Position numbers and translations under genes: made by a program. From Candidatus Gastranaerophilales bacterium (GTDB taxonomy: Bacteria; Cyanobacteriota; Vampirovibrionia; Gastranaerophilales; Gastranaerophilaceae), in assembly GCA_944324845.1 (NCBI GenBank), contig CALUXX010000001.1, positions 186,001-250,000 of the forward strand: a stretch of DNA of 64,000 nt. The letters run 5' to 3'. The notes under the pieces are model-generated. The model had not been told where the DNA came from. It ran no database searches and saw only the letters and a list, made by a program, of their open reading frames with translations. Of the stretch, positions 24,523-50,588 are shown piece after piece. Each line of letters opens with the position of its first letter. Positions within the stretch are counted from its first letter, which is position 1.

Positions 24523-26211
24523 ATGATAAATAAAGTTGAATTAGGTAGTGTAAATAGCAAATGTGCCCCGGCTGGAAAGTTTGGGTTGAAACAAAAAGGA
24601 TCGACTAGTTTTACAGGACTAGGCGGATTTGCATTGAAAGGTATTCAAAAATGTGAAGAATACCCAATGCTTAACGTTACTGTTTTGGATTTATCTACTG
24701 CGATTATTCCAAGAACTTTCTTTGAAACTTTTATTGGTTCAAAGAAAAAGGATGAAAACGGTAATGAACAAAAAGAACGTAAATTAAATATTATGGGTGG
24801 TTTTGAAGCTTTCAGACGTGAATCTTCAGGACTTATTATCAACTGTATTATTCCTAGTTTTATCGTTCAAGCAGTTGCGTGTGTATTACAAAAGCCTATA
24901 ATGGGTGTTTTTAGTAAGTCAGGTTTGTTCAGAAGTTGGGCTAACAGTGATACTATAAACAAAGTTCAAAAATATTACACTGAAGCTATTGGTGATAGCA
25001 AAGAAGATAAAATCTTTAATACCCTAAAATCTATGTTTGATGATATTGAGGGTGTTGATGGTGATATTGATAAAAATGGTTTGAAGAAGTTTAAAGATAT
25101 TTTAGGTAATGACAGTGAATATATCTCAAAATTAAGAGAAACTGCTAAAAATATTGCTTCTGACAATCATAAAGGTTCTTCTGATCTTTACAAATACATT
25201 GTTTCTAAAACAGGTATTGCAGAAAATATAAGATTTTCTAAAGAAAAAGGATTTTTCTCAAGCAGCTTAGGACATCTTTGCGAAAGTGCTCAAGATTTGT
25301 TGCATGGTATCGTAAAAGAAGAGGCTAATATTAAAAATGCTGATGATTTAACAAGATACTTTACAAAAGCTAAACATCTTGTTAATGCTAAGAGTATTTT
25401 CGGGTTGGGTATAATTATACCTTTAGCTCTTGCGGCTCAACCTATCAATAGATGGATTACTCACAAAATGTCCGGTAAAAAAGGTGCTCCGATTTATAAT
25501 GATGATAAAGAAAGAGTTTTAACTCCGGAAGAAAAAGTTAAATTAACTGCTCAAAAATTCTTAGCAGTTCCTTCTATGTTAGGTGTTGCTGCTTTATCTA
25601 TGATTATGGATAGACCAAGTTTGAAAATGTTCCAATTTAAGAATATTTTCCCTACTATGGATCAGGCAAGAATTATCTCTGCTGCTACTTTCTCTAGTAG
25701 AATTGCTGCTTCTGAAGATTCCAACGAATTAAAAGAAAATACTATAAGAGATATTGCAACGTTTTCAAGTTTTTATTTCTTAGGCGATTATGCAGCTAAA
25801 GGTATTGCTACATTCCTTGAAAATAAAAACAATGACGGTATTAAACTAATTAACAGACTTAAAAATACTGCTGATGATGCTAATGTATTGCAAAAATTCT
25901 GGAATTGGGCTAAACATACCAAGATGAAATCAACAGATGAATTGGAAGCTATTGCAGATACAGCATTAAGGACTAAGGCTAAAAACTTGAGAGCCTTCTG
26001 TCAATTAGGTAATCTTGCATTCTCACTAATTTCATTGGGTGTATTTATACCTCTATATACAAGAACTCAAACTAATAAGAAAAATCAACAAAATCAACAA
26101 CAAAACGAAAATGCTAGTAATATGATAAAAACCTCTAATGGAGCCGCTACAACATTTACCCAAAAATTAATAAAAGATAAAACTACAGCATTCAGTTCAT
26201 TTTTTAACTAA
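24523..26211 (+). CDS. Uncharacterised membrane protein, paralogue A (562 aa)
   Basis: I recognise no known family. A polar N-terminus carries S-F-T-G (residues 29-32). A block follows with VLDL (54-57), I-I-P-R-T (61-65) and F-E-A-F-R-R-E (94-100). Hydrophobic segments lie at about 103-122, 292-308, 345-361, 405-425 and 495-515, with a large charged helical region between the first two. The second segment ends AAQPINRW, and the third is followed by FQFKNIFPTMDQ and NELKE. The C-terminus is rich in Gln and Asn. The adjacent downstream gene shares all these blocks in the same order. There is no cleavable signal peptide, so the N-terminus should be cytoplasmic. Confidence 0.8.
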   Translation: MINKVELGSVNSKCAPAGKFGLKQKGSTSFTGLGGFALKGIQKCEEYPMLNVTVLDLSTAIIPRTFFETFIGSKKKDENGNEQKERKLNIMGGFEAFRRESSGLIINCIIPSFIVQAVACVLQKPIMGVFSKSGLFRSWANSDTINKVQKYYTEAIGDSKEDKIFNTLKSMFDDIEGVDGDIDKNGLKKFKDILGNDSEYISKLRETAKNIASDNHKGSSDLYKYIVSKTGIAENIRFSKEKGFFSSSLGHLCESAQDLLHGIVKEEANIKNADDLTRYFTKAKHLVNAKSIFGLGIIIPLALAAQPINRWITHKMSGKKGAPIYNDDKERVLTPEEKVKLTAQKFLAVPSMLGVAALSMIMDRPSLKMFQFKNIFPTMDQARIISAATFSSRIAASEDSNELKENTIRDIATFSSFYFLGDYAAKGIATFLENKNNDGIKLINRLKNTADDANVLQKFWNWAKHTKMKSTDELEAIADTALRTKAKNLRAFCQLGNLAFSLISLGVFIPLYTRTQTNKKNQQNQQQNENASNMIKTSNGAATTFTQKLIKDKTTAFSSFFN

Positions 26212-26236: not shown

Positions 26237-27970
26237 ATGAAAATCGAAAGTAACTTACAACAATTTAGAACACAAAAATATTCAGATAAAAGACAAGTAC
26301 AAAATTCGGCGATATACGGTAATCAAAACTTAAATAATAAATCTTCAAATCCTAATTTTACGGGTTGGGGTGATTTGTTTTTAAGATTTTTAGATACCAA
26401 CCAAGCTTGGGGTGCAACATTTGTTGACCTTGGATTTATGGTATTGCCAAGAACGGTTACAGATTTTACTCGTAATACAGATGCCGGTATTGAAACTTTC
26501 CGTCGTGAAGGTATGGGAAATGCTAATCACGCGATGATTGGTTTATATGGTACTTTGGCAGGATTACTTTTTGCTACTGGAATTAATAGGCTTTTTCAAT
26601 TAGGTAAAAATGATGTAAAAGCCAGCTCAATTTTTGCAGATTCTGAAACTATCAATTTACACGGTCAAATTTATAATGAAGCTTTGAAATCTGCAAAAGA
26701 TAATGCTAACGCTAATCCTTTGCGAGATTATTTAAAAGAAACTTTGAAAAATTATGAAGCTTTAAGCCCTGATGAAAATGCTAAATGGGTTAAATTTAAT
26801 AGTAAAACGATAGATTCAGTTTCTGATATTTTAGAAAGTGAAATTAGAGCAGATGGTAAGAAACTTTCTAAGGATTCATTTAATCAAATTAGAAGTCTTT
26901 TGGTTTCTGATTCTAAAGTTGAAAATAATTACAGAATTGTTGCAAAAGCTGGTGAAAGATTACATTCATCTCGTTATGAAATCGGATCTATTATCAGTAA
27001 TATGTTTAACTTAGGTAAAGTATTCAATAAACAAACTGTTATTGATGCCTTTAATGCTGCTGAAGAGTCAGCTAGAGCTGCTGCTAATAAAGCGGAACCT
27101 ATTGTTGGAAATGCATTTTTAAAAGCGCTGAAATCTTTGAACTTAAAACGTTCACTATTAGGTATTGGAATTGCTTCTGCTGTTGGTATTTCTGCTCAAC
27201 CTCTTAATATGTATTTAACTAAGTTAAAAACCGGGAATAGTGGTTTTGTAGGTGGTGGCGAAGAAGATAAATCTAATGCATTCAAACTTAAAAAAGGTCT
27301 ATTTGCAACCTTATTTGGTGCTGGTGTTCTTGCAACAATCGGCAATCCTAAAAACTTGCTTAAAAATCTTCAATTTAAAGGTTTATCTCCGACTATTAAC
27401 CAATTTAAGTTTATTTATGGCGTTACCATTATGTCAAGATTTTTTGCAGCCAGAAATGATAACGAATTGAAAGAAGCATCTTTTAAAGATATTTTAGGTT
27501 TTGCTAACTGGCTTTTATTGGGTAACTTTGTTCAAAAACTTGTTGCTCAAGGTTTGGATAAATCTTTAATTAAACGTGATGGTAAAGGTGTTCTTAACTG
27601 GATTCAAAATTCTGCACTAAAAACCAGAGATGAAATTTTATTTGCTCATTTAGGTGAAAAAGCTTTTGATAAAAATGGTAAGGCGCTTTCTTACCAAAGT
27701 ATGGTAAATCTTGCTGATAAAGCTACAAAAACTAAACTTAAATATATCAAGATTGCTCAACTTGCTGGTTATTTATATTCAGGACTGGTATTAGGTTTTG
27801 GTATTCCAAAATTGAATATTTATATGACTAAACGCCGTATGGCAAAACAAAATGCTAATCAAAATCAAGATCAAGCTAATGTTATTGCAGCGGATAATAT
27901 GCTAAAACCGGAAAATATTAAGTTCCTACGAAATATGAATAATTTTACAGGTTCAGAAATTTTAAGATAA
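26237..27970 (+). CDS. Uncharacterised membrane protein, paralogue B (577 aa)
   Basis: This is the tandem paralogue of the preceding gene (25-base gap, AAAGG ribosome site). The same ordered blocks appear: N-F-T-G (40-43), FVDL (62-65), L-P-R-T (70-73), I-E-T-F-R-R-E (85-91), a hydrophobic segment at about 98-116, a second ending SAQPLNMYLT, then LQFKGLSPTINQ, SRFFAA, NELKE and a last hydrophobic stretch LVLGFGIPKL. A second N-F-T-G lies a few residues from the C-terminus. The function is unknown. Its stop codon is 2 bases from the convergent atpG stop, with no terminator between them. Confidence 0.8.
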   Translation: MKIESNLQQFRTQKYSDKRQVQNSAIYGNQNLNNKSSNPNFTGWGDLFLRFLDTNQAWGATFVDLGFMVLPRTVTDFTRNTDAGIETFRREGMGNANHAMIGLYGTLAGLLFATGINRLFQLGKNDVKASSIFADSETINLHGQIYNEALKSAKDNANANPLRDYLKETLKNYEALSPDENAKWVKFNSKTIDSVSDILESEIRADGKKLSKDSFNQIRSLLVSDSKVENNYRIVAKAGERLHSSRYEIGSIISNMFNLGKVFNKQTVIDAFNAAEESARAAANKAEPIVGNAFLKALKSLNLKRSLLGIGIASAVGISAQPLNMYLTKLKTGNSGFVGGGEEDKSNAFKLKKGLFATLFGAGVLATIGNPKNLLKNLQFKGLSPTINQFKFIYGVTIMSRFFAARNDNELKEASFKDILGFANWLLLGNFVQKLVAQGLDKSLIKRDGKGVLNWIQNSALKTRDEILFAHLGEKAFDKNGKALSYQSMVNLADKATKTKLKYIKIAQLAGYLYSGLVLGFGIPKLNIYMTKRRMAKQNANQNQDQANVIAADNMLKPENIKFLRNMNNFTGSEILR

Positions 27971-45225: not shown

Positions 45226-46992
45226 TTAAATGTTTTGTTTATAAACTTGATCTGTGTAAGATTCTATATATGGTGTATCAATTTCAAATACGTGAACTCT
45301 TCCAGGTCCAAGGTCTACTGCTACTTTTCCTTGTGATACTTGGAATTTGCTATCTTCACCGTATGAAGGTAATAAGTTTTCAAGTTTTTGGCGTTCTTTT
45401 AATGTCGGTACAATGACATTTCCTGTTGTTCTTCTGTTAACATTGCGATTTGCTATAACTAATATTGTTTTTCCTCTTTTGTGTCTTGCAAATGCAATAA
45501 TTTGATCTTTTTTATCGCCTTCTTTGTTCAATACTATATATGAACCTGTACTGATTAAGTCTATGTATTTATCTCTGAATTTCATTGCGTCAGTAAAGAA
45601 TTCTCCGATTTCTGGATTCTCTCCGCCAGGTTTACGTGATAAATTGAAAATATCAAGCTTCCCTTCGTGAGTTTTCATCTCATTAGAATCAGTTTGAGTC
45701 TTTTCGTTATATGTATTTCCATATTTATAAGTGTAATAATCTCCTGATTGGAAACCATCTACCGAATATGGATTTAACATTGGTAAGGTTGCTTGTAAAC
45801 CTGATGTTAAATTACAATATACAGTACCGCCATGGAACATTGGTGATATGTCATCGTGAGTTGCGAATGAACCGATTAATGATTTACCTTTTTCCAATCT
45901 GTATGACATATTTAGATTATCAATTACGTAATTGTGTAATTCTTTTGCTGTGTTCCATTCATTAAAAATGTGATACTGTCCATAGTATGTATCAAAACCT
46001 GCTCTTAATGAGTCTTCAGGTCTATCATAAGGCATGTTTGCTTGTGGTGATGCATCTTCATATGTATATGTTTCTGCTAACCAAGCAAATTCAGGATTCC
46101 TTTTTCTTGAGTATGGAATTAAAATGTCCCAAAATTCAACAGGTTTTGCTCTGGCTACGTCTGCTCTAATTCCGTCAACTCCTGCATCTATTAACATATC
46201 AACAAATTTTCTGTGATATTCAAGTAGCTCAGGATTTAATGTTCTTTTTCCTTCATCTTCCCAAGGTTCAAACATTCTAATATCGTACCAACCTTGTGGT
46301 GTTTTTGCTAAACCGTTTCGTTCATGAGCCATTAGATCAGGTCTGTTTTCATATAATGTAAATGATGCACAACTTGGCATATCTACCATAACTCTTATGC
46401 CTCTGTTATGACATGCATCTACAAATGCTTTGAATTGTTCTTTATCTGAGCGTGGATCATTTTTATCAACTAACATTGGGTCTATTTTTAATAAATCTTC
46501 CGGGGAATATACAGAGCCTGCTGTTCCCATTGCGTTTTCTTTTCCTGGTGGATTTATTGGTAATACGTGTAGTGTATTGTAGCCTTGTGCTTTTATTTCA
46601 TCAAGTCGTTTTATTCCATTTAAAAATGTTCCGCAAGTTTCGTTTTGATCTATATATTCATTGCCGTTTTTATCTTGAGCATTAAACGTTCTTGGCACCA
46701 TTGCTAGTATTTTTACTCTGTTTGTTAAAAATAAGGTTCGCAAGTCATTTTTGTATGGTTTTACAGGCTCAGTATTTATTTCTGATACCGGTTTTACTAC
46801 AGGTTTATTTGCATTTGCTATATTTTCCAAATATTGACTTAATAAATTACTTCCGGTCAAGCCTGTTCTAATTGTCGGTTGACTTTGGATTTCTGATATT
46901 GGATTTGTTGTTTGGGTTGTTATAGCGGTATTTCTATATTTGTCCAAAAAATTAGAGCCAAAAGTTGTTTTGTTATAATTCATTGTAATCAT
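45226..46992 (-). CDS. GH13 alpha-amylase-family protein with duplicated N-terminal module
   Basis: A 588-residue protein. The GH13 barrel has region I-like VMVDMPSCAS, nucleophile Asp in GIRADVARA, acid/base Glu in WLAETYT and the third acid in FATHDDISP, so it should be active on alpha-glucans. A C-terminal all-beta domain ends at about 580. There is no signal peptide, so a cytoplasmic role in glycogen use is likely. The first 77 residues contain two copies of a 30-residue module (GSN-[F/L]-L..Y, then P-[I/V]-S-E-I). D107-x-N-x-N-x3-D-x2-E118 resembles a calcium-binding loop. The start overlaps the previous gene's stop (TAATG). Confidence 0.9.
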   Translation of the reverse strand: MITMNYNKTTFGSNFLDKYRNTAITTQTTNPISEIQSQPTIRTGLTGSNLLSQYLENIANANKPVVKPVSEINTEPVKPYKNDLRTLFLTNRVKILAMVPRTFNAQDKNGNEYIDQNETCGTFLNGIKRLDEIKAQGYNTLHVLPINPPGKENAMGTAGSVYSPEDLLKIDPMLVDKNDPRSDKEQFKAFVDACHNRGIRVMVDMPSCASFTLYENRPDLMAHERNGLAKTPQGWYDIRMFEPWEDEGKRTLNPELLEYHRKFVDMLIDAGVDGIRADVARAKPVEFWDILIPYSRKRNPEFAWLAETYTYEDASPQANMPYDRPEDSLRAGFDTYYGQYHIFNEWNTAKELHNYVIDNLNMSYRLEKGKSLIGSFATHDDISPMFHGGTVYCNLTSGLQATLPMLNPYSVDGFQSGDYYTYKYGNTYNEKTQTDSNEMKTHEGKLDIFNLSRKPGGENPEIGEFFTDAMKFRDKYIDLISTGSYIVLNKEGDKKDQIIAFARHKRGKTILVIANRNVNRRTTGNVIVPTLKERQKLENLLPSYGEDSKFQVSQGKVAVDLGPGRVHVFEIDTPYIESYTDQVYKQNI

Positions 46993-49541
46993 TATTTTGC
47001 CTCCTTATTTTTCCAAGGATTTTTGTTTCTTCCAATAAATAGTTGAGCTAGTAATGTTACTCCAATTAGCCCTGCACCTAATTTTCCAAATACACTGAAC
47101 CATTTACCACTGTTAAACATGTTGTGGAATGCTTTATAGGCAACATCTGCCGGTGCGCATCCTGTTAGTATAAATCTTTGTTCTGATGTTGATTTTACTT
47201 TTCTTCCATCTACAAGATGATTTGGTTTTGCAAAATAGAAGTCTCCTCCAAGAATTTCTAGTGCATCTTTTCTGAAATTCCTGAAATCATCCCAGAATCC
47301 TGATTTCTTTATTTTTTCTGCTGTATCTGGGTGTAAGTCTTCTCCATACATTAATTTCATTACGGACTCAAAGTAATGCCTATCATTTGCAAATTCAACA
47401 CATTCTTTTTCGCCTACTCCTAAGTATTGATTTATTACTTTTCCATTTGCCGTTTCTATTTGTCTATAGTCACTCTTATTTGCTTCAGGATTTCGTAATT
47501 GCCAGAATTTAACTGCAAAGTCTGAAGTATGACCTTCTAGCATTATTGTTTTTGCTAGTTCTACCATTTCTTCTTTTACTTCTTTTGGTATCCTATTATT
47601 TAATATTGCAGTATCTCGACCATCTAAATGGGCTATTCTGTAATATAAATCTGCAAAGTTTAAGAATCTATAGAATGAACTTTTTACACCTTTTATTCTG
47701 TCATCTACAAATTTTAGCATTAATTGTCTTGATGAAGTGTTTGGTGAAACTATATTTCCATAACCATCAATTATTCCTCCTATTGATGATGCGGTATGTC
47801 TCATTCCATTTCCTAATAAGGTCTTTGCTGTGTTATCACAAGTTGAATTAACTATTGTTTTATATGCGTTTTCATCTTGGGTCATATCTATTTGTGTTGA
47901 TTTGCTGTATAAATTAGATAATAAGTTTTCCATCTTATCGATGAATTTTGTATAACTTTCTTTATTTGCAACTATTGATTCCATTTTATTACGTAGAATT
48001 TCTGTTGCTATTTCATTATCTATTCTTGCTTGTTTTATTTCATCTTGTGTAAAGTTCATTGCTTTAAATATTTCATCAGACATGTGGTTCCAAATATTGG
48101 CAAGTCCTGTTTCCGGAGCTTGGGCAACTTTTATGTAAGCATATCTGTCTAGAACTGCACTTTCTGCTTTGAATGTATTTAATCTATCACTTACGGCTTT
48201 TATTGTTTTTACTTTTTCCGGTGTTAAGATTTCTGCAGGTTCAAGTTTTAACGCCTCAAATAATGGTGAATCTTTTCCTAACTTTTGTGAATGAACTATT
48301 TTCTTTGCGTTAAATTGAAGTTGTTTTTTGGTTCTTTCATCCACTTCTGATGATATATCTTCTATATTTTTGGTTAATATGCGTTGTAATGTTTTTGAAT
48401 GTTCTGTAAAATCATTATATGTGCCATTTAGCAAACCTTTACTTGTAAATTCTTCTGTTAGTGTTTGAGCATTCGGTATTATTCTTTCTACAATATTTTC
48501 AGGAAGTTTTATCGGTTTTAATACTTCTCTTATAGTATCTTGAATTGCTTTTACGCTATTATCTGTGATTTTATAGTTTTTATCTTGCGGTAATAGCAAA
48601 TCTAAATCTCTTTTTAAACTATCACTAACTACTTTATCAAGTCCGTTTGATATGTTTTTGTGTAAAGATTCTACTAATTCTTTTGTTATTGGTTTGCCTT
48701 CATTTTCTGTTAATATTTTTGCTAATTCGGCACTGCCTTTGCTGAAATCATATTTTTTGATTTCTTGTGGGAAGTGTTCTAAAAGATTATCTGCAAATTT
48801 ATCCATTTTTTGATCTGTAATTTTATTTACAGGTTTTTCTAAAGCGTTACATAATAACGCACTTATTAATGGTGTTGCAAATCCTGAGGTTAACATCCAT
48901 AGGGTGTTATTTTGTAATGCAATTTGACGCATTTTTTCTTGTATTGCATTTCTTCTGTTTGGTATATCTTTTGGTATTCCTAATCTGTCACCAATTCTAT
49001 TGATTACATCGTCTGGGTATAAGTCCCAAGGTATAAATTGGTGATCTTGGTAAAATAATTTCTTTCTTCCATAATTATCTTCGTAATATTGTCTTACGTT
49101 GAATCCATGCACTAATTGTGCCGGAAGTTGGATAAATAATTTCGGCCATAAATCCATTGCTGCAAAAAATGTTCCAAATCCTATAAATTCAAATAATTTA
49201 GTTTTTGGAGTTTGTTTTTTAGTGAATAAATATGATGCCAAAACCAATCCGCCAAATTTCATTCCAACATCATTTAAGCGTCCTAGTTCGTGATCGTTTG
49301 CTTTTCCTCTTAGTGCGTGATAAAAAGCTTTTATGTCATATTTTATATCTTTTTGAATTTCTGCCGGATAATCCATAATTGTCGGGTTCAAAAGTTTTCC
49401 GTTGCTTGGCAATGGCTTTATAAATGTTCTGTTTGTTAGTTCTCTGTGAACATCAAAATCTCTTGATACCTTATCAGACTGATATTGTTGTGTGTTTGGA
49501 TTGTTTCTTATGTATGATTGTAGTATATTTGTTGTTCTCAT
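46992..49541 (-). CDS. Uncharacterised 849-residue membrane-associated protein
   Basis: I recognise no known family. Hydrophobic stretches occur at about 93-107, 125-140, 210-232 and near the C-terminus (WFSVFGKLGAGLIGVTLLAQLF), with a long charged helical middle of about 450 residues. A block LPAQLVHGF..FIPWDLYPDD (about 144-187) has a counterpart in the gene upstream, which has KPIQMITGI..FPRWDLLYGD. The gene starts right after that gene's stop and its own stop overlaps the amylase start, so the three are one operon. The middle region has heptad-like spacing. Confidence 0.78.
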   Translation of the reverse strand: MRTTNILQSYIRNNPNTQQYQSDKVSRDFDVHRELTNRTFIKPLPSNGKLLNPTIMDYPAEIQKDIKYDIKAFYHALRGKANDHELGRLNDVGMKFGGLVLASYLFTKKQTPKTKLFEFIGFGTFFAAMDLWPKLFIQLPAQLVHGFNVRQYYEDNYGRKKLFYQDHQFIPWDLYPDDVINRIGDRLGIPKDIPNRRNAIQEKMRQIALQNNTLWMLTSGFATPLISALLCNALEKPVNKITDQKMDKFADNLLEHFPQEIKKYDFSKGSAELAKILTENEGKPITKELVESLHKNISNGLDKVVSDSLKRDLDLLLPQDKNYKITDNSVKAIQDTIREVLKPIKLPENIVERIIPNAQTLTEEFTSKGLLNGTYNDFTEHSKTLQRILTKNIEDISSEVDERTKKQLQFNAKKIVHSQKLGKDSPLFEALKLEPAEILTPEKVKTIKAVSDRLNTFKAESAVLDRYAYIKVAQAPETGLANIWNHMSDEIFKAMNFTQDEIKQARIDNEIATEILRNKMESIVANKESYTKFIDKMENLLSNLYSKSTQIDMTQDENAYKTIVNSTCDNTAKTLLGNGMRHTASSIGGIIDGYGNIVSPNTSSRQLMLKFVDDRIKGVKSSFYRFLNFADLYYRIAHLDGRDTAILNNRIPKEVKEEMVELAKTIMLEGHTSDFAVKFWQLRNPEANKSDYRQIETANGKVINQYLGVGEKECVEFANDRHYFESVMKLMYGEDLHPDTAEKIKKSGFWDDFRNFRKDALEILGGDFYFAKPNHLVDGRKVKSTSEQRFILTGCAPADVAYKAFHNMFNSGKWFSVFGKLGAGLIGVTLLAQLFIGRNKNPWKNKEAK

Positions 49542-50588
49542 CTAGCACACCACACTTTCTTTTTTAGGATTAATCACGTCATTATGTTTTTGTGGTTTTT
49601 GAGTCAGGTGTACTGAATTTGCTACACCTAAAACTGTTGTTATCGCTGCTAAACCTAATAGTGCTTTCCCTGCATGCTTTGTTATCGGCGATTTAGAATG
49701 AACCGGTCCTTCATATAAAGCTTTTGCACTTCTTACTAAACTTCTGCCGAAAACTTTTAGGGAATGCATAAAATCTTTTCCTTTCCATACTTTTAGGGTT
49801 GCAGCCTTAAAGTAATCATCCCACGGCTTTTGGAATGCTAATGCTACAGCTGTTACTGCCCATAAAAATGATGAAAAACTCTTTGCTAATTTTGATTTTA
49901 CCAATACTTCTTTGTATATAGGTTTTACGTCTTGGTCGGAATCGTTCAAGTCTGTTCCTAATCCATTTTTCTGTGCGATTTTATCATATCTGAAGTTTCT
50001 CGCTTCACCTTTTTTAGGATCTCCATATAATAAATCCCATCTTGGAAAATCTACACTTTCTCCAACCTTATGATATTCAATACTTGTTAAATCATCATAA
50101 ACACCAGGTCTTTCTTGTAAGAAGTAATTAACTTTTGCATATGGAAGTTCTGTATCTATGCCTGTTATCATTTGGATTGGTTTTGTAACCAATACTTTTG
50201 ATGCTTCTTTGGCTAAGGCATATAATAATACTCCTAATGCCATTTTGTTGCCTAATTTTGCCGCTTTTATTGCTGCATTGTGTGAAAAATGCTTGTTAAC
50301 ACTGTTAAATATCGAAATTAATGTTGCACTACCAATTATGAATGGTACGTTTTGTCCCAGTGTTAAAAATTCATAAAAGTTTGAATTGATACTTCCTTTT
50401 AAACCTTTTGCAGGATATATTGTGAACGCTTTAGTTAATTTGTCTAAACCTATCCTCGTTCTTGTTGCAAAATTGTTGTTTAATAAGGTATCCTCATCGT
50501 ATGCAGAATCCGCCCCTGTTTTTTCTTTCGGCTCTGATTTAAATGTTACTAATCTGTTTTCCCTAAAATTACTAATCGGTGATATCAT
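49542..50588 (-). CDS. Uncharacterised 348-residue membrane protein
   Basis: I recognise no known family. The N-terminus carries V-T-F-K-S (14-18). Hydrophobic segments lie at about 78-95, 112-128, 243-258 and 318-334 (LLGLAAITTVLGVANSV). The block KPIQMITGI...FPRWDLLYGD matches a block of the next gene's product. It is the first gene of a three-gene operon ending in the GH13 enzyme. An inverted repeat lies 39-62 bases upstream of its start. Confidence 0.75.
   Translation of the reverse strand: MISPISNFRENRLVTFKSEPKEKTGADSAYDEDTLLNNNFATRTRIGLDKLTKAFTIYPAKGLKGSINSNFYEFLTLGQNVPFIIGSATLISIFNSVNKHFSHNAAIKAAKLGNKMALGVLLYALAKEASKVLVTKPIQMITGIDTELPYAKVNYFLQERPGVYDDLTSIEYHKVGESVDFPRWDLLYGDPKKGEARNFRYDKIAQKNGLGTDLNDSDQDVKPIYKEVLVKSKLAKSFSSFLWAVTAVALAFQKPWDDYFKAATLKVWKGKDFMHSLKVFGRSLVRSAKALYEGPVHSKSPITKHAGKALLGLAAITTVLGVANSVHLTQKPQKHNDVINPKKESVVC

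Follow-up and report, generated by a model that had tools for sequence, protein, structure and literature searches.

Enzymes of glycoside hydrolase family 13 (GH13) are retaining hydrolases or transferases of alpha-glucans, and two systems with GH13-type proteins at a membrane have been described. SusG, of the Bacteroides starch system, is a GH13 enzyme held at the membrane beside dedicated membrane proteins; it is an outer-membrane lipoprotein situated outside the cell. The eukaryotic SLC3 heavy chains (rBAT and 4F2hc) pair with SLC7 transporters, so that a GH13-type domain stands at the membrane with a polytopic partner; they have a single transmembrane helix and an extracellular domain, and function in amino-acid transport. 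Here we describe a three-gene operon in a 64,000-nucleotide stretch (the window) of a Candidatus Gastranaerophilales genome. The operon (the trio) encodes two membrane-type proteins, called 348 and 849 after their lengths in residues, and a GH13-type enzyme, and represents a variant, found across the clade, of membrane-associated GH13 enzymes that brings in two new protein families. It differs from SusG in that neither a lipoprotein signal nor a Sec signal was seen on the trio GH13, and from SLC3/SLC7 in that 348 and 849 showed no transporter match. With a probability of roughly 0.6, the three products make up an alpha-glucan-processing module associated with the membrane, in which the GH13 enzyme is held on 849 at the cytoplasmic face.

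The source genome (1.96 Mb in 19 contigs) is 99% complete. The genes are transcribed in the order 348, 849, GH13; the end of the 348 gene directly abuts the start of the 849 gene (adjacent bases), and the 849 and GH13 genes overlap by the single base 46992 within TAATG. A preliminary description of this DNA had reported three abutting genes, and the coordinates, lengths, strand, adjacent stop and start, and TAATG overlap were all confirmed. All three genes were called at 39 loci, and there the 348-849 gap was −13 to +48 bases (within ±4 at 29 of the 39) and the 849-GH13 gap was −121 to +11 bases; these values use longest open reading frame (ORF) starts, and the large overlaps may be start-codon artefacts. 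Tight packing is the general rule for the trio in relatives.

Searches with each trio protein were performed in 146 genomes of the order Candidatus Gastranaerophilales, the source genome included. At E ≤ 0.001, 849 was matched in 139 genomes, 348 in 138, and GH13 in 144, the last count taking in a paralogue plus weak matches. The best match places followed the order 348>849>GH13 on one strand of one contig and within 8 kb in 134 of the 146, which bears out the earlier proposal that the three genes form one unit. The trio is thus a near-universal three-gene unit of a gut lineage, and two of its three proteins could be placed in no family of the libraries searched. Twelve genomes departed from this arrangement. 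The order was GH13>348>849 in G026; the genes were spread over different contigs in G005 and G113; G010 had no 348 match, with 849 close to a contig end; GH13 was the sole trio gene matched in G020 (66% complete); and G028 had 348 and 849, its best GH13 match (E 1e-81) not being placed in the list. Matches to 348 and 849 were absent from six genomes (G002, G009, G011, G015, G022 and G024, of which two, G011 and G024, reach only 88% completeness), and GH13 matches there were weak at most. The membrane genes were not found widely without the GH13 gene, nor the reverse, in the genomes searched.

At the level of the phylum, 348 was matched in 173 of 386 genomes, and the trio-type GH13 or its paralogue in 174 of them at E ≤ 1e-30. 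All of the genomes with these matches belong to the order of the window except G361, of the same class, and the other Cyanobacteria sampled among the 386 gave no 348 or GH13 match at the thresholds used. One family member, G378, gave no match to 348 or 849 and a weaker match to GH13, presumably the paralogue. The G394 contig breaks off within 849. Among the best 80 of 364 stretches encoding an 849 relative, the record titles of close relatives named Candidatus Gastranaerophilales, Melainabacteria or uncultured bacterium, and many of the sample names referred to gut or rumen. A contig labelled Muribaculaceae (L130, JAMPCZ010000042.1) encodes an 849 relative at 48% identity, and is probably a misbinned Gastranaerophilales contig.

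The flanking genes were compared in 40 stretches of the order and the window; the neighbours in the window were checked against Pfam, and the short neighbour names used across relatives are our own labels. In near relatives, the trio is preceded by genes for BacA (UppP-type), PTPS (QueD-type), a HAD phosphatase and an SIS-CBS protein. In distant genera these four neighbours are gone and the trio is retained. The linkage of the trio is therefore more than passive synteny, because the three genes stay together while the genes around them change between genera.

Relatives in a different order of the same class bear on which protein may meet which. In G361, a 348 relative is followed by a single ORF of 1030 residues, which was matched by the 849 profile over residues 116-244 (i-E 1.9e-38) and, further on, by the GH13 profile over residues 519-1030 (sequence E 4e-136). 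Matches were found in 14 of 18 genomes of this order, and 14 stretches from 13 of them were examined, G407 being left out with its pieces on two contigs. Nine stretches had the split trio 348>849>GH13, and in three the gene after 348 was a fused 849-GH13 ORF (1030, 986 and 1082 residues; genera g52, g164 and g165); of the remaining stretches, one was cut by a contig end and one (G413) had only a weak GH13 match. In G415 the module is present twice, once fused and once split. In the fusions, GH13 follows the hydrophobic helix that corresponds to the C-terminal helix of 849. A tree of 55 GH13 sequences grouped the three fusions in one clade with a support of 0.995, and the fusion therefore looks like a single event. 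The possible tethering of the enzyme to the membrane is best supported by this natural fusion, which also predicts directly which protein touches which. Because the coupling is conserved and a natural fusion exists, GH13 would work with, and probably on, 849. The functional link between the membrane proteins and the enzyme proposed in the preliminary description is strengthened by the adjacency across the order and by the fusion.

Operon neighbours need not touch, and the GH13 of the window has no membrane segment of its own. The enzyme could accordingly be a soluble maltodextrin enzyme that is only co-transcribed with functionally unrelated membrane proteins. We regard this as unlikely: the linkage survives changing flanks, and co-absence in six genomes together with an 849-GH13 fusion would be unusual for unrelated functions.

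A profile-profile comparison with hhalign aligned residues 26-262 of 348 with residues 41-244 of 849 (probability 96.5, E 9e-10), and the two proteins are taken to be paralogues over about 200 residues by this sequence relationship. The shared block noticed earlier is thus real and larger than claimed. The shared domain has conserved Gly, Pro and Tyr positions. Four hydrophobic segments recur in the 348 family (75-93, 116-134, 234-252 and 309-327), with mean Kyte-Doolittle hydropathy over 19 residues (KD19) of 1.12-1.64, the next peak being 0.06. In 849, three hydrophobic stretches recur in the family, and single sequences show a fourth, at the C-terminus. An insert of about 540 residues, mostly helical and poorly conserved, separates helices 3 and 4 of 849, where 348 has only a short stretch. 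Positive-inside analysis was tried as a guide to the topology of both proteins and could not fix their orientation. Judged from these features, 348 and 849 are likely membrane proteins; the earlier description of them as such stands as likely rather than proven, the segments being there and their hydropathy modest.

Outside this relationship the two proteins resembled nothing in the libraries, as had been noted. No Pfam or NCBIfam cut-off was met and no PHROGs match was obtained at E ≤ 0.001; sub-threshold family matches were weak (best E 0.019-0.028), and the 348 relative of G361 was likewise without a family above cut-off. DevC (NCBIfam), a candidate for 348, was rejected with 13.7 bits against a cut-off of 290. 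Confident AlphaFold2 models were obtained for 348 (predicted local distance difference test (pLDDT) 83, predicted template modelling score (pTM) 0.76) and 849 (pLDDT 85, pTM 0.72). Foldseek found nothing in PDB at E ≤ 0.001 for either model (best E 0.038 for 348 and 0.11 for 849; best E in BFVD 0.052 for 849). The best VIA matches were within the usual noise for helical models: Z 5.6 for 348, with a root-mean-square deviation (rmsd) of 10.0 over 151 residues, and Z 6.9 for 849, with an rmsd of 7.1 over 202 residues in the insert. Profile searches of PDB gave a single match for 348 (E 0.98) and, for the insert of 849, helical-bundle and designed helical-repeat chains (best E 0.0016).

The arrangement of two paralogous four-helix proteins in fixed order with an enzyme, the fusion of that enzyme directly after the last hydrophobic helix, and the conserved Gly, Pro and Tyr positions would suit a transporter or flippase that moves maltodextrin or a growing alpha-glucan through the membrane while GH13 trims or transfers the chain on the cytoplasmic side, that is, vectorial processing. 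However, each protein has only four modestly hydrophobic helices, no transporter similarity above noise was found in sequence or fold, and no transport motif was recognised, so this alternative appears somewhat unlikely. A related and equally doubtful suggestion is that 348 and 849 are a new paralogous membrane-protein family forming a dedicated conduit for alpha-glucan, and that one GH13 enzyme, or two, would be fixed at its cytoplasmic mouth to cut or transfer the chains during passage. If that were true, it would represent an undescribed vectorial glucan processing common to two orders of non-photosynthetic Cyanobacteria.

The third protein is a member of GH13 by its sequence relationships, in agreement with the earlier assignment. 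It matched PF00128 with 23.2 bits against a cut-off of 22, and its best single-sequence match in PDB was the maltosyltransferase of Thermotoga maritima (1gju/1gjw, E 2.5e-15). In PDB searches with the GH13 profile, 4gkl was best (E 3.2e-25), followed by 1gju (E 1.2e-23) and 3dhu, and the matches to these and to GlgE chains ranged from E 3e-25 to 3e-11. The catalytic residues were invariant in a 35-row alignment; among 55 aligned sequences, D278 and E307 were kept in all and H379/D380 in 54, with the split copy of G415 as the one exception, the catalytic roles (Asp nucleophile, Glu acid/base, region IV Asp) being assigned from known motifs. Region I reads PSCAS, without the Asn-His of typical hydrolases, and S207, C208 and S210 were invariant. 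Such a deviation separates GH13 subgroups, and membership of the family was judged by the PF00128 and PDB matches and the catalytic residues. The T. maritima maltosyltransferase likewise lacks Asn-His in region I, whereas the alpha-amylase 4gkl has the usual NH. The active site of the trio GH13 thus appears maltosyltransferase-like. It differs from the T. maritima enzyme in its own N-terminal extension, the conserved PSCAS and the linked membrane-type partners, and its activity is predicted from sequence. The bacterial alpha-amylases 4gkl and 3dhu are short chains (422 and 449 residues) without the extension.

The source genome also encodes a 517-residue GH13 paralogue, whose N-terminus we read as a Sec signal peptide. 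On the extension of the trio GH13 (about 80 residues), a signal peptide, a hydrophobic stretch and a lipoprotein signal were not seen, and alignment showed it to be unrelated to the N-terminus of the paralogue. The two proteins look like exported and cytoplasmic versions of one enzyme. Because it lacks the export-signal-like N-terminus present on the paralogue, the trio GH13 is probably cytoplasmic, as the preliminary description had it. A further GH13 lies at C2:238893 of the source genome, in a longest ORF of 692 residues with a hydrophobic N-terminal part. The extension contains an NLLxxYL-like motif, which was found at the N-terminus of 849 (49541 downward) in 62 of 119 family members, at about residues 10-60 of GH13 in 63 of 113, and in 4 of 372 ORFs of the source genome, these four probably including the 849 and GH13 of the window. 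The two operon members that carry it, 849 and GH13, are unrelated proteins. The motif was found post hoc, family members are not independent, and a looser form also matches 60 of 69 neighbouring SIS-CBS proteins; we retain it only as a candidate docking segment.

On a reading in line with the surface-glucan part of the earlier interpretation, the trio GH13 would belong to a surface or periplasmic system, being exported by a non-Sec route and active outside the cell. In some 348, GH13 and giant GH13 proteins (see below), an IxFxG-like motif follows a disordered-looking leader at the N-terminus; it occurred in the first 50 residues in 77 of 119 members of the 348 family, 16 of 113 GH13 and 7 of 9 giant GH13 proteins, and also in 40 of 372 ORFs of the source genome and 83 of 84 neighbouring BacA-family proteins. 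The loose motif occurred at 2.9 per 1000 residues at N-termini versus 2.4 elsewhere in the 372 ORFs. IxFxG was therefore rejected as a general N-terminal sorting tag, since it is not clearly enriched at N-termini, and it proves nothing. With the signal peptide seen on the paralogue and not on the trio GH13, an external location is very improbable.

The glycogen part of that interpretation fared no better. Starch and glycogen use and glycogen storage have been predicted for these bacteria in the accessible parts of PMC4040986 and PMC5877343, and starch and/or glycogen use or storage for the lineage in those of PMC3787301. No mention of the trio proteins was found in the accessible parts of these three articles and PMC4451040, nor any description of the trio in those of the open-licence PMC literature, supplementary files being outside the scope. 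These predictions, together with glycogen-synthase-type GT5 genes that are widespread in the order, could favour a role of the trio at the membrane in glycogen remodelling or in the anchoring of glycogen granules. However, GT5 matches were strong in all six trio-less genomes and only weak (best E 1e-25 to 5e-4) in six genomes bearing trio genes (G005, G007, G013, G017, G069 and G090), four of which (G007, G013, G069 and G090) have a listed completeness of 99%. The co-occurrence with GT5 expected of a member of the glycogen-storage (glg) set was thus not found. This distribution weakens a storage role; a dedicated one is not supported, and granule anchoring or remodelling is improbable. Phosphorylase (PF00343) was matched in 140 of the 146 genomes, mostly as a short form and at full length in two, and was uninformative. 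The preliminary interpretation is therefore supported for the conserved unit, the novel related membrane-type pair, the cytoplasmic-type GH13 and the functional link between them, and is not supported for glycogen and surface glucan.

We infer the topology, the physical complex, the substrate and the role of the favoured module as follows. The paralogues 348 and 849 would together form an inner-membrane scaffold, and GH13 would sit on its cytoplasmic face, with its N-terminal extension as the point of attachment, close to the hydrophobic helix at the C-terminus of 849, as the natural fusion suggests. The enzyme would cleave or transfer alpha-1,4-linked glucose units by a retaining mechanism, and the giant GH13-like protein may be a frequent additional partner. 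The most likely role would be the handling of maltodextrin or other alpha-glucans on their arrival at or exit from the membrane, rather than bulk glycogen storage. The fusion would offer a way into alpha-glucan handling at the membrane in these predicted anaerobic fermenters.

Several observations weigh against this proposal. Beyond residue 240, 849 is mostly poorly conserved across the order. The helices are modestly hydrophobic (hydropathy about 1.0-1.8), and helix 4 is flanked by basic charge on both sides, so that charges do not settle the topology. The model folds of 348 and 849 say nothing about function. In the split copy of G415 (L250, G415:C12), region IV reads TPYD for THDD. The fusion, being apparently one event, counts as one observation only. 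Rooting the GH13 tree with the paralogue, moreover, places the sequences from the other order within the diversity of those from the window's order, next to L094. This may reflect transfer between orders or a tree artefact, and the module may predate the divergence of the two orders or have moved between them.

Table 1. Positions of the trio, its parts and related GH13 genes
Feature	Position	Strand	Basis or remark
348-residue membrane-type protein, first gene	49542..50588	minus	ORF calling
849-residue membrane-type protein, second gene	46992..49541	minus	ORF calling
588-residue GH13-type alpha-glucan enzyme, third gene	45226..46992	minus	ORF, PF00128, PDB matches, conserved catalytic residues
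Shared domain in 348, residues 26-262	49803..50513	minus	hhalign E 9e-10
Shared domain in 849, residues 41-244	48810..49421	minus	hhalign E 9e-10
849 long helical insert, about residues 256-796, between hydrophobic helices 3 and 4	47154..48776	minus	model DSSP
849 C-terminal hydrophobic helix, residues 818-836	47034..47090	minus	KD19 1.67
GH13 N-terminal extension, about residues 1-80, NLLxxYL-like motif(s), candidate docking segment	46753..46992	minus	paralogue alignment
517-residue GH13 paralogue	G000:C1 about 184697-186250 (L002:1351-2904), reaching just into the window start		signal-peptide-like N-terminus
Giant GH13 in the source genome	C7:32206-34008		1383-residue frame, away from the trio
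Further giant GH13 copies	L086, L089, L091, L092, L095, L099, L101, L104, L108		
Further giant GH13 copies	L227, L249, L251, L252, L254, L255, L258		

A giant, diverged GH13-like protein of about 1270-1490 residues adjoins the trio in several lineages. Among the 40 stretches of the order, its gene is directly downstream in eight and upstream in divergent orientation in one; among the 14 of the other order, it takes the divergent upstream position in seven. With one giant copy as the query, 137 of the 140 genomes bearing the trio gave a match at E ≤ 1e-20 (all but G026, G045 and G111). None of the six genomes without the trio did so, their best match being E 6e-10 or weaker, or absent. These counts were made by eye, and the matches were not each confirmed as the giant protein versus another GH13; those listed sit in frames of about 1100-1630 residues. 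Fisher's test gave p 7e-9 for the co-occurrence, a value that is too optimistic since the genomes are related. PF00128 was passed at cut-off by two of the four giant copies scanned, one of them narrowly. Some copies show GH13 motifs (WRxDAAKDI, HD), and others were not caught by the patterns used. The giant GH13 is a frequent second GH13 partner of the trio.

Elsewhere in the window, two adjacent paralogues of 562 and 577 residues (25% identity, E 3e-25) are encoded on the plus strand at 24523-26211 and 26237-27970. They were considered as relatives of 348 and 849 and rejected, as comparison of P0001 with the 849 profile and of P0002 with the 348 profile gave no relation. Neither has a Pfam family over cut-off, and both have Asn/Ser-rich N-termini ending in an FTG motif. 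Proteins that by their sequence alone read as Type IV pilin-like (N-termini of the form GFTLAEVLIT...) are encoded near the trio in relatives (L211:1826-2509, L167:215-1006 and others), and also elsewhere in the source genome.

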